Shown here piece by piece: positions 11,951 through 37,054 of a stretch of 43,800 nt of DNA; positions within the stretch are counted from its first letter, which is position 1, and each line of letters opens with the position of its first letter. The notes beneath the pieces are model-generated. The model ran no database searches. It saw only the letters and a program-made list of their open reading frames with translations, and had not been told where the DNA came from. The position numbers and the translations under genes were made by a program. The stretch is from Pirellulales bacterium. GTDB lineage: Bacteria; Planctomycetota; Planctomycetia; Pirellulales; DATAWG01. The DNA lies in assembly GCA_035939775.1 (NCBI GenBank), contig DASZFO010000292.1:1-43800 (forward strand), read 5' to 3'.

Positions 11951-13129
11951 ATGAATCACGCCTATTTACTCGCCTGCTGCCGCACGCCGATCGGCAAGTT
12001 CTTGGGGGCGCTTGCGGCATTGCCGGCCCCCGAACTTGGAGCGGCCGCGATTCGGGACGCCGTTCGCCGCGCCGGGGTTCCGGCCGATGCGATCGAGGAA
12101 GTGATCATGGGATGTGTGCTCGCGGCGGGAGTCGGGCAGGCGCCGGCGCGGCAAGTTGCGCTCAAGGCCGGTTTGCCGCCGACGGTGGCCGCGCTGACGA
12201 TCAACAAGGTCTGCGGATCGGGGCTGAAGGCCGTCATGCTGGCCGATCAGGCGATTCGATCGGGCGACTCGCGATTGATTGTGGCCGGCGGCATGGAGAG
12301 CATGAGCCGCGCGCCGTTCTTGCTGACCGGTGCTCGCGAAGGCTGGAAATTCGGCCCGCAGAAGGTGCTCGACTCGATGCTTCACGACGGGCTGTGGTGC
12401 GCGTTCGAAGACGTGGCGATGGGGGCCGAGGCCGACTATATCGCATCCAGCCGTCAGGTGAGCCGCGGCGATCAAGACGCCTTCGCGGTTGAAAGTCATC
12501 GCCGAGCGAACGCAGCCATGGAGCAAGGGCTGTTCGACGCCGAGATTGTGCCGGTGATCATGCCGGGCCGAAAGGGAGAGACTCGCATCTCGCGTGATGA
12601 GGGCCCGCGGACCGATTCGACGATCGAGGGCCTCGCCAAGCTCCGCCCCGCGTTTCAGCCGGACGGGACGGTAACTGCGGGAAATGCCTCACAACTGAGC
12701 GACGGCGCGGCGGCGGTGGTCGTCGGCGACGAACGGGCGGCGCGAGAGAGCACGTCTCCGCTGATCGCGCGAATCGTCGCCACGGCAACTGCCGGCGTGC
12801 CGCCGAAGGAGATCTTCATTGCCCCCGTCGCCGCGATCGAGCGCGTTTTGGAAAAGTCCAAGCTCAGACTTGCGGACATCGATCTGGTCGAACTGAACGA
12901 GGCTTTCGCCGCCCAATGTCTCGCGTGCATGCGGCCGCTCGGTTTGGATTCGGCGAAGACCAATGTCAGCGGCGGGGCGATCGCGCTCGGGCATCCGATC
13001 GGGGCGAGCGGGGCGCGAGTGCTCGTGACGCTGCTCTACGGCTTACAGCGCCTAGGGCTGAAACGCGGCCTAGCCGCCCTCTGCCTCGGCGGCGGCAATG
13101 CCGTGGCGATGATCGTCGAGCGCGAGTGA
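11951..13129 (+). CDS. Acetyl-CoA C-acetyltransferase (thiolase)
   Basis: Two starts are possible: GTG 11939, overlapping the protease stop, or ATG 11951. I chose the ATG because it gives 392 residues and places the catalytic residues at Cys88 (INKVCGSGL), His348 (GGAIALGHPIGASG) and Cys378 (ALCLGGGNAV), the positions seen in the Zoogloea enzyme. The product condenses two acetyl-CoA to acetoacetyl-CoA or cleaves the reverse way, in the cytosol; it could serve isoprenoid or fatty-acid metabolism. GGMESMSRAPFLL and EAFAAQCLACM are further family signatures. No other genes of a beta-oxidation or PHB pathway are adjacent. Confidence 0.94.
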   Translation: MNHAYLLACCRTPIGKFLGALAALPAPELGAAAIRDAVRRAGVPADAIEEVIMGCVLAAGVGQAPARQVALKAGLPPTVAALTINKVCGSGLKAVMLADQAIRSGDSRLIVAGGMESMSRAPFLLTGAREGWKFGPQKVLDSMLHDGLWCAFEDVAMGAEADYIASSRQVSRGDQDAFAVESHRRANAAMEQGLFDAEIVPVIMPGRKGETRISRDEGPRTDSTIEGLAKLRPAFQPDGTVTAGNASQLSDGAAAVVVGDERAARESTSPLIARIVATATAGVPPKEIFIAPVAAIERVLEKSKLRLADIDLVELNEAFAAQCLACMRPLGLDSAKTNVSGGAIALGHPIGASGARVLVTLLYGLQRLGLKRGLAALCLGGGNAVAMIVERE

Positions 13130-13132
13130 CAA

Positions 13133-13190
13133 GTGTACTCCTCACGCTCCGCGTGAGCAAATGTCATCACGCGGAGCGTGATGACTACAC
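13133..13190. repeat. Inverted repeat between convergent thiolase and hemH
   Basis: The arm at 13133-13156 pairs with 13164-13190, around the palindromic core CACGCTCCGCGTG and its complement. It lies between two convergent genes and overlaps the last codons and stop of hemH. It could end transcription in both directions, but lacks a T tract. Confidence 0.55.
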
Positions 13191-14330
13191 GGGTCGCGTT
13201 GCCGGTCTTCCCGATGGGCAGCAGTCATCCGGGCAAAAATCGTGGCTCGGCCCGAGCGTGCCCAAGGCCGGCCGTTCGACGTTCCCATCAATTCGTTCAA
13301 CGATCAACTCCCGGATCATCTGGACGAACCGCGGATGGGTGCCGACCGTCGCTGCACGCACCATATTGATCCCCAATTCGTCGCAGATCGCGTGAGCTTC
13401 CATATCGAGGTCGTAAATCACTTCCACGTGGTCCGAAATGAAGCCGATCGGCACGATGACCACGTCGCTCGCCCCGGCCATCTTAGAGCCTAGCCGAGAA
13501 CCGCCGGGGACTGTCCCCTTTTGTGGAGCGGGCACCATCGCCAGATGGTCGGGAACCAAAGGGGACTGTCCCCCTCTCCGCAGGCGGTTCTCGGATTGGC
13601 TCTTGGAGGACCGTAGCCAATCGCGGATGTCCGGCTCGAGCCACGGCTGGCTCGGCGGCCCGCTGCGGCTTTGGTAAACCAGTTCCCACTCGCGCCCGAC
13701 AGTTTCCGCGACGAGCCGGCAAGCCTCACGAAGCTGCGGCTCGTAGCGGCAGCCCTGGGCCATCGCAAGCGGGATGCTATGTGCCGTGAAGGCCAGCCGC
13801 ACGCCAGCGCTGCGTTCGGTGGGAATCCGCTCGATCGCCTCGCGAGTGCGGTCGATCATTGGCTCGATAAACCCCGGATGATTGAAGAATGTTCGCAGCT
13901 TGTCGATCCGCGGCGCGGCAGGCCCGACCTCAGCCCGAGCCTGCTCGATGTTCTCAAGATACTGCCGGCAGCCGGAATACGAGCTATAGGCGGATGTGAA
14001 AAACGCCAGTGCCCGGCGAACGCCATCCGCCGCCATCTGCCCCAGCGTATCCGGCAAGAGCGGATGCCAATTGCGATTGCCCCAATAGATCGGCAGCCGC
14101 GGTCCATGGGAATCAAGCTCATCGCGAAGCGCGGCGATCAGCGCGCGATTCTGCGCATTGAGCGGACTTACGCCGCCGAACCGCCGATAATGCTCCGCGA
14201 CCTCGAGCATCCTCTCGCGGGGCACATTCTTCCCGCGTAGGACGTTCTCCAGAAACGGCGCCACGTCCGCCATCCCCTCGGGCCCGCCGAAGGAAACCAC
14301 CAGCAGCGCGTCATATTTATGAGTGCTCAT
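13185..14330 (-). CDS. hemH: Ferrochelatase with an in-frame repeat-encoded insertion
   Basis: 381 residues. The HemH fold is clear: LLVVSFGGPEG at the N-terminus, GGVSPLNAQN, YWGNRNWHPLL, catalytic His184 in FTAHSIP, YQSRSGPPSQPWLEPDI, and IVPIGFISDHVEVIYDLD. It inserts ferrous iron into a porphyrin to make haem. Residues about 243-282 are not part of the family: they are encoded by a 119-bp palindromic element (13485-13603) that keeps the frame open. Without it the length is about 341, which is normal. The C-terminus carries DFCPDDCCP, a Cys cluster that may hold an iron-sulfur cluster, as in some actinobacterial and Caulobacter ferrochelatases. The start overlaps the sulfotransferase stop by 14 bp, so it is third in a minus-strand operon. 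Confidence 0.93.
   Translation of the reverse strand: MSTHKYDALLVVSFGGPEGMADVAPFLENVLRGKNVPRERMLEVAEHYRRFGGVSPLNAQNRALIAALRDELDSHGPRLPIYWGNRNWHPLLPDTLGQMAADGVRRALAFFTSAYSSYSGCRQYLENIEQARAEVGPAAPRIDKLRTFFNHPGFIEPMIDRTREAIERIPTERSAGVRLAFTAHSIPLAMAQGCRYEPQLREACRLVAETVGREWELVYQSRSGPPSQPWLEPDIRDWLRSSKSQSENRLRRGGQSPLVPDHLAMVPAPQKGTVPGGSRLGSKMAGASDVVIVPIGFISDHVEVIYDLDMEAHAICDELGINMVRAATVGTHPRFVQMIRELIVERIDGNVERPALGTLGPSHDFCPDDCCPSGRPATRPV
13485..13603 (-). repeat. Palindromic element copy A (inside hemH)
   Basis: Terminal inverted repeats of 21 bp (13485-13505 and 13583-13603, AGAGCC...AACCGCC, two or three mismatches) enclose two GGGGACTGTCCCC palindromes (13506-13518 and 13561-13573) and an inner ACCATC/GATGGT-type hairpin. 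In hemH sense orientation its first half shares about 30 bp with copy F in the CPBP gene. It encodes about 40 residues with no stop. Confidence 0.88.
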
Positions 14331-21106: not shown

Positions 21107-21229
21107 CTAGAAGCAGTTTCAAAACCGCTGTGAGAAGGGGACAGTCCCCATTTTACTCCACGGCCATCGAGGCGTTGGTGCAGGGCGCAAAATGGGGACA
21201 GTCCCCGACGGTTTTGAAACTGCTTCTAG
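21107..21229 (+). repeat. Palindromic element copy B (abuts tRNA-Glu)
   Basis: Perfect 21-bp terminal inverted repeats (21107-21127 and 21209-21229, CTAGAAGCAGTTTCAAAACCG) enclose GGGGACAGTCCCC at 21137-21149 and 21194-21206 and a degraded inner hairpin. The core is nearly identical to the reverse complement of copy C over about 80 bp, but the termini are entirely different. The right end is the base next to the tRNA discriminator base. Confidence 0.9.
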
Positions 21230-21302
21230 TGACCCCGACGGGACTCGAACCCGTGTTACCGGCGTGAAAGGCCGGTGTCCTAGACCGCTAGACGACGGGG
21301 CC
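21230..21302 (-). tRNA. tRNA-Glu (UUC)
   Basis: 73 nt on the minus strand. The acceptor stem is GGCCCCG/CGGGGTC with one G-U pair, the D arm has GTCTAGCGGTCTAGGAC, the anticodon arm is CCGGC-CTTTCAC-GCCGG with anticodon TTC, and the T arm is ACGGG-TTCGAGT-CCCGT. CCA is not encoded. Palindromic elements flank it on both sides, and a copy of its 3' end is at 17213-17236. Confidence 0.96.
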
Positions 21303-21340
21303 AAAAAGTTGCGAGCCGAATCGCCGATCACGCGTCTAAC

Positions 21341-21455
21341 CGAGAACCACCTGCGGAAAGGGGGAGACTGCCCTTGTGCTTCGGAGACAACCTCACCCCG
21401 GCCCTCTCCCAACAAGGGCGAGGGAAAGGCGGCGGATAGTCCCCGGCGGTTCTCG
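21341..21455 (+). repeat. Palindromic element copy B2 (degenerate, core replaced)
   Basis: CGAGAACCACCTGCGGAAAG at the left end and GGCGGTTCTCG at 21445-21455 match the ends of copies A and F. One GGGAGACTGCCC-like and one ATAGTCCCC-like block replace the usual 13-bp palindromes. The centre is a different dispersed repeat (21391-21424). Confidence 0.7.
21391..21424. repeat. CCTCACCCC...GAGGG repeat, copy 1
   Basis: A short hairpin of the type CCTCACCCCGGCCCTCTCCC with GGGCGAGGG, also present at 29004-29039 and 31361-31398. Such repeats are common in many bacterial genomes. Confidence 0.55.
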
Positions 21456-21741
21456 AAGCGGACAGCGCGCCGACAGACGGCTATCAATTTACAACCGACC
21501 CGCACCCAAACAAAGCCCTAATTGGTTGGCGCGATGGAGGTCGAGGCACTCGAGTCTCAGCCATCATCGATCGGAACGCCGCGTCCGACGGAACGCCACG
21601 GAGAACGTTCCCTACATCGTCGTCGCAATGGGTGGAGCGTCCAATAGGCCGCGAGCCAGCAGGCAACTCGCGCGGCTCAAGACAGAGATCAAGCGGAAAC
21701 GCAGGGGAGAGAACCCTTCGAAATCGTGAGGCTCGACGGCG

Positions 21742-28137: not shown

Positions 28138-28267
28138 AACGCCTAACAAAACCGCCGGGGACTGTCCCCATTTTGCGCCCTGCACCATCGCCTCGATGGC
28201 CGCGGAGTAAAATGGGGACTGTCCCGGACTTTCCGCTTTGCCCAGGCGGTTCTCGGATAGGCTCTAA
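28134..28267 (-). repeat. Palindromic element copy C (spacer, mixed termini)
   Basis: The left end TTAGAACGCCTAACAAAACC resembles the GCCTAACA termini of copy E; the right end GGCGGTTCTCGGATAGGCTC is the copy A type. GGGGACTGTCCCC is at 28157-28169, a mutated copy at 28214-28226, and an inner CCATCG/CGATGG hairpin lies between. The core is nearly that of copy B reversed. It lies between the convergent clpV-trio and bioD genes and overlaps the last codon of the former. Confidence 0.87.
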
Positions 28268-31315: not shown

Positions 31316-31360
31316 ACTGCCAGGTGATCCGTGAACTGCCGCGGTTTACCTCCGCAATTC

Positions 31361-31398
31361 TCTCCCTCGCCCTCGATGGGAGTGGGCCGGGGTGAGGG
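31361..31398. repeat. CTCCCTCGCCC...GGGTGAGGG repeat, copy 3
   Basis: Hairpin repeat of the 21391 and 29004 family. It abuts the TPR remnant. Confidence 0.55.
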
Positions 31399-31408
31399 TG
31401 TCAGGCGA

Positions 31409-34803: not shown

Positions 34804-34925
34804 ACGGCAAAGGGGCAATCCCCAGTTTTGTTCCGCCGGCCATCGCGGCGATGGTGCCAGCGCAAAATGTGGGCACTCCCCGCCACGGCGGATGTTCCAC
34901 CCAGCGGATTTGTGAGAGGTTCTTA
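34804..34925 (+). repeat. Palindromic element copy D (degenerate, 5' leader)
   Basis: GGGGCAATCCCC at 34812-34823 and a GGGCACTCCCC block near 34871 replace the 13-bp palindromes, and the inner CCATCGCGGCGATGG hairpin is perfect. The right end GCGGATTTGTGAGAGGTTCT resembles that of copy E; the left terminus is not recognisable. Confidence 0.75.
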
Positions 34926-34954: not shown

Positions 34955-36028
34955 ATGAAGCGTCTTCCGCGCGCCTTGTCATCGCACTGGCGGATAGCGA
35001 TCGCACTCGCGCCAGTTATGTTGGCGCTTTCGGCGGCGCCGTTGCCGGCCGGCTTCATCGGTTGGACGTATTCCGTGGCCAGCGACGGGCTTTCCAGCCA
35101 AATTTCCCGCACGACTAACGGCGGGACGAATTGGTCGGTTCAAGAGAACGCCAGCGGTCATCTCCAGTCCCTTGCCTTTTCCGATACGCTGCACGGCTGG
35201 GCAGGGATTAACGGTTCTTCGAGCCTCCTGCACACGACCGACGGAGGCGTTTCGTGGACGTCGGTGAGCACGGGCGTGGGGACTGTCGGCTTCCTGGGGA
35301 TTTCCGCGCTCGATGCACAGAATGTCTGGGCCATCGGCTTCGGATCGGCGCTCGCGCACACGTCGAACGGTGGCGCGACCTGGTCCGCTCAGTCGCCGCA
35401 GCCCAACGGCAATGGAAACTTTTACAGCGTGCAATTCCTCAATTCCCTGGATGGTTGGCTCGTGGGAGACAAGGCGATCCAGCATTCGACCGACGGGGGC
35501 CAAACCTGGAACGTTCAACTGAGCAGCACGTCGTTTCACGGCTTGTTTTTCGACGATCTGTCCAACGGCTGGGCGATCGGCGCAAATAATGCGCTTTTTC
35601 ACACGAGCAACGGTGGCGCGGCTTGGGCCTTTCAATCCACCGGCTTGACCGCGACCGCGAACCTCGAGGGCATCTTTTTCACTAGCCCGAATATCGGCTG
35701 GCTCGTGACCGCGGGCGGTCAGATCTTGCATACGACGAACGGCGGCGCCAATTGGGCGACTCAATTCACCGGCGCCAATGCGCTGCTCGGCGTGAGCTTC
35801 GTCGACTCTCTGAATGGGTGGGCGGTCGGCCTGAACAGCACCGTCCTGCACACCGCCGATGGCGGCGCCAGTTGGAACCCGCAAAGCCCTGGGACGGTCG
35901 ATCCGTTCATCGACGCAGTTGTCTTTCCGGCGTCGGCGGTGCCCGAGCCTACGTCGCTGTTACTGATGGGCCTGGGGATTGTCATCGGCGGTCTGACATA
36001 CGTGGGTCGGGCGCATCGGCGAAGTTGA
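34955..36028 (+). CDS. YCF48/BNR-repeat beta-propeller with PEP-CTERM sorting signal
   Basis: 357 residues, ATG preceded by AAAGGAAG. An N-terminal signal peptide (residues 12-32) is followed by seven repeats of the form H-T-x-x-G-G-x-x-W (from RTTNGGTNW to HTADGGASW), which fits a seven-bladed YCF48-like propeller. The C-terminus VPEPTSLLLMGLGIVIGGLT then YVGRAHRRS is a textbook PEP-CTERM tail: PEP motif, TM helix, basic end, expected to be cut by an exosortase. No exosortase gene is in the window. It is likely a secreted or surface protein, maybe linked to exopolysaccharide. A strong promoter lies upstream. Confidence 0.93.
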   Translation: MKRLPRALSSHWRIAIALAPVMLALSAAPLPAGFIGWTYSVASDGLSSQISRTTNGGTNWSVQENASGHLQSLAFSDTLHGWAGINGSSSLLHTTDGGVSWTSVSTGVGTVGFLGISALDAQNVWAIGFGSALAHTSNGGATWSAQSPQPNGNGNFYSVQFLNSLDGWLVGDKAIQHSTDGGQTWNVQLSSTSFHGLFFDDLSNGWAIGANNALFHTSNGGAAWAFQSTGLTATANLEGIFFTSPNIGWLVTAGGQILHTTNGGANWATQFTGANALLGVSFVDSLNGWAVGLNSTVLHTADGGASWNPQSPGTVDPFIDAVVFPASAVPEPTSLLLMGLGIVIGGLTYVGRAHRRS

Positions 36029-36036
36029 GGGGGATC

Positions 36037-36855
36037 GTGGACGATCGACCGAAGCGCGCCTCGCGCGGGCTGCCGTTGTCGCTTCGCTGGGGAGCGTTTC
36101 TATTCACGGCGGCGTTTCCAAGCATATTCACCTGGGTCTACTTCGTGGTGTTGGACGGAAGCGCGCCCTGGGTGCAGCAAGCAGCTTGGTTGACCGGGAA
36201 GTTGATTCAATTTGGATTTCCGCTGACGTGGGTACTATTCGAGAACATTCGAAAACCGCCTGCGGAGAGGGGGACAGTCCCCGTTTTCTCCGCGGACTCC
36301 GAAAAGGGGGACAGTCCCCGGCGGTTTTTGCAGCGGTTGCGTCTGCCGGCGGCGACTCGCCGCGGAATGATGCTCGGTTTGGGAATGGGCGCGGCGGTGG
36401 CGGGAATCATGTTGGCCGCGTATTTTGGAGGGCTTGCTCATTCCGATTTTTTCGCTCATGCGGCGGAGGTACTGCGGAATAAGCTGCCGGCGTTTGGAAT
36501 CGATAGCCCGAGCAGAATGATTGCGCTGGGAGTCTTCTATTCGGCGATCCATTCCTTGCTGGAGGAATACTACTGGCGGTGGTTCGTGTTCGGGCAATTG
36601 CGGCGGCTCGTTCCGCTGCCGGCGGCGGTCGTTGTGTCGAGCCTCGCGTTCATGGGGCATCATGTCATCGTGCTCTCGATCTACTTATCGTGGCCGGGGA
36701 CGGCGGCGGCTTCGGGCTGCGTGGCGGTCGGCGGAGCGTTGTGGGCCTGGCTCTATCAGCGAAGCGGATCGCTTTATGCTCCGTGGGTTAGCCATCTACT
36801 CATCGACGCGGCCATCTTCGCCATCGGATATGAGATGGTCTTCGCGCCGCGATGA
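36037..36855 (+). CDS. CPBP intramembrane protease with in-frame repeat insertion
   Basis: 272 residues from GTG 36037, chosen because GAGGGGGA lies before it and the frame upstream is antisense-like. The CPBP/Rce1 motifs are EEYYWR (Glu176, Glu177, Arg181), FMGHHV (His208/209) and HLLIDAAIF (His253), the expected zinc and active-site residues; about seven hydrophobic helices surround them. Residues about 72-98 are encoded by palindromic element copy F (36251-36329) and fall in the loop after the second or third helix, so the protein probably still folds. Function may be cleavage of prenylated or membrane-bound substrates. It follows the propeller gene by 8 bp. Confidence 0.85.
   Translation: MDDRPKRASRGLPLSLRWGAFLFTAAFPSIFTWVYFVVLDGSAPWVQQAAWLTGKLIQFGFPLTWVLFENIRKPPAERGTVPVFSADSEKGDSPRRFLQRLRLPAATRRGMMLGLGMGAAVAGIMLAAYFGGLAHSDFFAHAAEVLRNKLPAFGIDSPSRMIALGVFYSAIHSLLEEYYWRWFVFGQLRRLVPLPAAVVVSSLAFMGHHVIVLSIYLSWPGTAAASGCVAVGGALWAWLYQRSGSLYAPWVSHLLIDAAIFAIGYEMVFAPR
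36251..36329 (+). repeat. Palindromic element copy F (inside CPBP gene, shortened)
   Basis: GAAAACCGCC and GGCGGTTTTT at the ends enclose two GGGGACAGTCCCC blocks; the inner hairpin is reduced, so this copy is about 79 bp. Its left half equals the sense orientation of copy A, but the CPBP gene reads it in a different frame. Confidence 0.85.
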
Positions 36856-36934: not shown

Positions 36935-37054
36935 AGAGCGCCTAACAGACCCGGCTGGGAGAAGGGGACAGTCCCCGTTTTGCTCCGCCGACCATCGCGG
37001 CGATGGTGCCCGCGCAAAAGGGGGACGGTCCCCGCCGGATTTGTTAGACGTTCT
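36935..37054 (+). repeat. Palindromic element copy E (before proC)
   Basis: Ends AGAGCGCCTAACAGACCCGG and its imperfect complement enclose GGGGACAGTCCCC at 36964-36976 and GGGGACGGTCCCC at 37021-37033, with a perfect ACCATCGCGGCGATGGT in the middle. It lies 36 bp before the proC start. Confidence 0.9.

Follow-up and report, generated by a model that had tools for sequence, protein, structure and literature searches.

In-frame insertions of repeated DNA in conserved genes, with a hairpin structure, are known from the Rickettsia palindromic elements, or RPEs (Ogata et al. 2000/2002; PMC2229807, PMC10969869). The single RPE insert to have been tested lies in guanylate kinase; it is translated, and the enzyme carrying it is active (PMC2229807, PMC10969869). 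Target duplication is listed as unknown for RPEs (PMC2229807), and a 2024 review calls a comparable mechanism in other prokaryotes conceivable (PMC10969869). The Correia elements (NEMIS) of Neisseria occur in 107-bp and 155-bp forms, one size class being ORF-compatible and lying inside genes while the other is mostly intergenic, and the two classes differ by stop codons (PMC2229807).

Here we describe a palindromic element that lies in frame in the ferrochelatase gene of a Pirellulales bacterium. The window analyzed is contig C292 (43,800 nucleotides), part of a draft genome of 6.39 Mb. Set beside RPEs by description and not by sequence, the element is alike in behavior (in-frame insertion, empty sites in relatives): both are palindromic repeats of 100 to 150 bp, present in many copies, in frame in conserved metabolic genes, and able to form a stable hairpin. 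They differ in that the present host belongs to another phylum and that long inverted ends and 3-bp TTA/TAA duplications are clear here. By this analogy RPEs are the closest system in behavior; the two would appear to work alike, and we do not file the element as a member of that group. The likeness to Correia/NEMIS, again compared by description, lies in the division into ORF-compatible and ORF-incompatible size classes (here 99 and 117 bp versus 100 and 118 bp), but the classes described here differ by length modulo 3, those of Neisseria by stop codons.

The ferrochelatase gene and its insert

The hemH open reading frame runs without a stop through 381 amino acids, insert included. Its product exceeds the curated ferrochelatase cut-offs of Pfam (PF00762, 4.5e-81) and NCBIfam (NF000689 equivalog, 1.1e-132), the profile matches fall into two stretches divided by the insert, and H184 (the catalytic His) and E303 (a conserved Glu) are invariant in the alignment. 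The gene is the single PF00762 locus in the genome, and a genome-wide PF00762 search for a further hemH, of which an intact copy elsewhere had been envisaged, found none. The insert is a 117-bp palindromic element flanked by a target duplication with a one-base mismatch (Table 1), and the element and its 3-bp duplication together add 120 bp, or 40 codons, in frame. A preliminary description of the locus had placed a repeat-encoded stretch at 13485-13603, giving residues 243-282, with no stop, no frameshift, and normal HemH sequence on either side. These boundaries are correct within a few bases, the residues encoded by the element are indeed about 243-282, and the observation as a whole is confirmed.

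The hemH copy differs from the family consensus (97% identity) by three substitutions, each of which changes an amino acid. Its RNA, folded as a single strand, reaches -71.8 kcal/mol (z -6.8). The frame in which hemH reads the element is KSLSENRLRRGGQSPFVPDHLAMVPAPQKGTVPGGSRIGS, which is not the commonest one among the inserts. The tryptic peptide GTVPGGSR of the hemH insert recurs in other inserts. At the end of a thiolase-like gene, positions 13128-13195 hold an inverted repeat with 29-nt arms (86% complementary, 10 nt spacing), a possible terminator between that gene and hemH.

Table 1. Features of the window, with related copies in genome G030
Feature	Position	Strand	Remarks
hemH, ferrochelatase	13185..14330	-	only copy in genome, profiles above cut-off
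Palindromic MITE copy, subfamily 117, GAGCC...GGCTC ends	13486..13602	-	in frame in hemH
Target duplication TTG (+ strand) = CAA (hemH strand)	13603..13605		
Target duplication TTA (+ strand) = TAA (hemH strand)	13483..13485		one base off partner
Diverged family copy	21121..21215	+	adjoins tRNA gene (21230-21302, minus)
Strongly diverged family copy	21334..21458	+	
Family copy	28148..28264	-	one intact GAGCCTATCCGAGAACC end (28248-28264)
Diverged partial family copy	34811..34883	+	
Family copy	36242..36333	+	in frame in ORF 35752-36852, whose C-terminal part is a Rce1-like (CAAX protease) domain
Family copy between Rce1-like gene and proC-like gene	36947..37042	+	probably intergenic
Element copies in G030	L179, L187, L193, L198, L200, L201		

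Empty site in relatives and predicted fold

The empty site that the preliminary description anticipated was found. In the HemH protein alignment, 27 of 27 aligned relatives lack the insert, contradicting the possibility that relatives all share it, and they have, as had been claimed, only a short loop at this place. The loop of one relative (L066) is about 10 residues longer than those of the others, in sequence unrelated to the insert. In G001, which belongs to the same family, the two pieces of hemH abut with 3 nt between them. With the insert removed, the loop of the present HemH reads LRSSKMAGASDVV, close in length to the LRELRAGGATDAVV of relative L063, less about one residue of alignment slack.

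In an AlphaFold2 model of HemH, built from a 20-sequence alignment, a helix (235-251) precedes the insert and a strand (289-293) follows it. The pLDDT is below 50 at 254-286 and mostly 71 to 97 elsewhere, the C-terminal tail excepted, and solved structures of bacterial ferrochelatases match it at TM scores of 0.84 to 0.88 (normalized by target). HemH is thus predicted to keep the ferrochelatase core fold with the insert as a disordered surface loop, a model-based result that favors the surface-loop reading offered earlier.

A family of elements with inverted ends and target duplications

The window contains 10 occurrences of the core motif GGGGACWGTCCCC (at most one mismatch), versus 0.07 expected in shuffles, and the 117-nt element used as a query matched 40 places genome-wide (E 1e-55 to 7e-26), so the stretch is repeat-encoded as first described. 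The end motif GAGCCTATCCGARAACC gave 140 matches with at most one mismatch, and a profile search returned 136 matches, 67 of them full-length, in the 403 kb examined, which makes these copy numbers lower bounds. Most of the full-length copies carry GAGCCTATCCGARAACC-type ends on both sides, that is, terminal inverted repeats; copies measure 93 to 154 bp and contain no transposase gene. Exact 3-bp target duplications flank 34 of the 67, versus 10.9 in shuffles (no more than 20 in any of 2000 shuffles), and TTA (14) and TAA (11) prevail among them. These features define a MITE family whose ends read GAGCC...GGCTC and whose duplications are mostly TTA or TAA. It has four main subfamilies, of which those of 99 and 117 bp keep the frame when the 3-bp duplication is added and those of 100 and 118 bp do not.

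A limited search recovered element matches in 9 of 117 genomes of the order, the present one included. Perfect TTA or TAA duplications flank all six 117-bp copies examined in G030, a genome from another family of the same order, where the form is about 87% identical. An exact-pattern scan of genome contigs, a set that possibly excludes this genome and its near relatives, gave no match to the element. Among open-licence papers, a search for the core sequence came back empty, and titles and abstracts of the planctomycete MITE literature held no description of this element. The family appears undescribed so far, the kind of phenomenon being already known.

A different dispersed repeat, of the CTCACCCCGGCCCTCTCCC type, lies at 21386-21428 and 31360-31402 in the window, its inverted copies being 88% complementary, and in the YchF and GH95 genes (L103, L117) similar peptides such as SPSPLTGEGRGEG lie inside or beside copies of the element. 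DUF1559/SBP_bac_10, a family characteristic of Planctomycetes, is matched 51 times in the genome, which fits a planctomycete host. Element copies in L115, L116, L124, L134, and L151 sit near contig ends, which suggests that the repeat breaks the assembly.

In-frame copies in other genes

The preliminary description had treated the insert as a peculiarity of ferrochelatase, which it is not: about two dozen family copies lie in frame within recognizable genes of this genome. Their hosts include LigD, PolX, NadE, YchF, a TrpE-like enzyme, a GarD-like protein (galactarate/altronate dehydratase), ZnuA, and an FGE-sulfatase; ABC transporters, TssG, an APH kinase, an AP_endonuc_2 protein, a Ser/Thr kinase, and glycosyltransferases; and a TgpA-like protein, QueC, a histidine kinase, a flavoprotein, the Rce1-like gene, and others. 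Relatives lack the insert in PolX, YchF, NadE, ABC, and GarD, and the inserts in PolX, NadE, and LigD fall at sites whose length varies among relatives anyway. Genic copies occur in either orientation and use four frames or more, the commonest reading being SLSENRRGLSPFVERAPSPDGREQKGTVPLSAGGSRIGS. The YchF gene (L103:2175-3482, + strand) encodes 436 amino acids, with low-complexity repeat-like residues in addition to the element, and exceeds the YchF of G001 by about 78 residues in all.

We asked how far frame is kept among copies within genes. Long ORFs served to train a codon-usage model, which picked copies with coding flanks on both sides, frame being ignored. In the whole set, sampled partly from an in-frame-protein search, 19 of 20 strictly intragenic copies are in frame. 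A frame-neutral sample, made up of copies from DNA and end-motif searches only, has 14 of 19 intragenic copies in frame (p 4e-4 versus 1/3), and 12 of 13 at a strict threshold (p 2e-5 versus 1/3). The sole strict exception, C191:3813, was rejected as a frame-breaking intragenic copy since it sits between two ORFs. Length is divisible by three in 16 of 19 copies within genes versus 19 of 35 clearly outside them (Fisher p 0.04), and outside genes lengths of 100 and 118 bp are common. Frame preservation is in part due to 99 and 117 being multiples of three already.

The encoded peptides show a different picture. Synonymous and replacement changes in 26 intragenic copies number 135:374 versus 153:348 expected, which is near neutral; the insert peptide is accordingly not conserved, and what the host maintains is the frame and not the peptide. 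Depletion of stop codons was considered as evidence of translation and dropped, since intergenic copies show the same. We can only speculate that the 99- and 117-bp subfamilies evolved to be compatible with genes, through an added length divisible by three, freedom from stops in several frames, and hydrophilic, disordered peptides, and thus enter even essential genes with little harm while their 100- and 118-bp sisters stay mostly intergenic; this idea has a fairly small chance of being right.

Proposed origin and alternatives

The account that we favor, with a probability of roughly 0.88, is that a nonautonomous IS5-like MITE transposed into hemH and is tolerated there, being translated as an unstructured loop and kept for the sake of the frame, not for any use of its peptide. 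The element would have jumped into the gene with a 3-bp target duplication. Since the 120 bp added are in frame, the element has no stop as hemH reads it, and the site is predicted to be a surface loop, the reading frame would survive and the enzyme would tolerate the insert, which would be translated as 40 unstructured residues. Selection against loss of the hemH frame would then hold the insert in frame, whereas the peptide itself would not be useful. HemH would presumably retain its activity.

A 3-bp TWA duplication and GAG/GGC-type ends are conventional for the IS5 family, and the element, with its TTA/TAA duplications and ends, matches this pattern. Full-length DUF4096 (IS5-type) elements of relatives have inverted, GAG-starting ends (GAGCGTCTAACAAAAC and GAGGCTGACAAACAAC) and TTA/TTA duplications, so the GAG...CTC ends and 3-bp TTA/TAA duplications of IS5-family insertion sequences and MITEs recur here, although the inner parts of the inverted ends are unlike those of the element. 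A search of the draft genome for a parent transposase bearing the same ends yielded only DDE_Tnp_1 remnants that lack them, and a search for a DUF4096 transposase in it gave no match; the parent may have been lost or may lie outside the assembly. Because the DUF4096 elements of relatives share the design, we infer an IS5-type mobilizer as the best fit, with the parent itself missing. The palindromic core GGGGACAGTCCCC and the four Y1_Tnp genes in the genome would also suit a REP/BIME-type element, whose mover would be a RAYT (Y1) transposase. However, transposition of the IS200/IS605 type leaves no target duplication, while this element has long terminal inverted repeats and 3-bp TTA/TAA duplications. 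A RAYT origin was sought at the four Y1_Tnp loci and rejected, none having the motif within about 1.5 kb, and we consider such a mover improbable. That the insert is an assembly artifact at a repeat is scarcely credible: repeats do break this assembly, as the copies near contig ends indicate, but both flanks here are halves of one single-copy gene, the boundaries are exact and come with a target duplication, and the same pattern recurs in many other genes with differing copies.

Two further readings, both raised in the preliminary description, concern the fate of the insert. It might be removed after transcription or translation, by self-splicing RNA, intein-like excision, or ribosomal bypass, leaving mature HemH of normal length, and the very stable transcript hairpin could in principle favor bypass. 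A length of 117 bp or 40 amino acids is, though, too short for known introns or inteins, and an Rfam search of the window gave two tRNAs and no ribozyme or other match. Because genic copies lie in both orientations and in several frames, they offer no constant peptide for protein splicing, and preservation of frame would be needless were the segment excised as RNA. Removal is unlikely, and we give it very little credence. The other reading is that the insert is beneficial, having been co-opted as a regulatory or interaction loop; its near identity to the consensus and its intact frame agree with this, and the hairpin could influence mRNA stability. Yet every relative examined lacks the insert, one of the same family included, no constraint on the peptide is seen across intragenic copies, the hemH copy departs from the consensus by replacements only, and the insert is disordered in the model. 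A benefit is accordingly unsupported, and co-option quite improbable.

Implications

What makes this element interesting is how many conserved genes it has struck in a bacterium with a large genome. In-frame selfish DNA in conserved genes at such a scale has so far been known mainly from Rickettsia, with genome decay as a confounding factor. With about two dozen cases in a genome of 6.4 Mb, it would follow that enzymes of bacteria whose genomes are not reduced also gain disordered loops from small transposons. The subfamilies differing in length modulo three provide material for testing whether transposons evolve toward ORF compatibility, and the insertion sites form a natural collection of insertion-tolerant positions.
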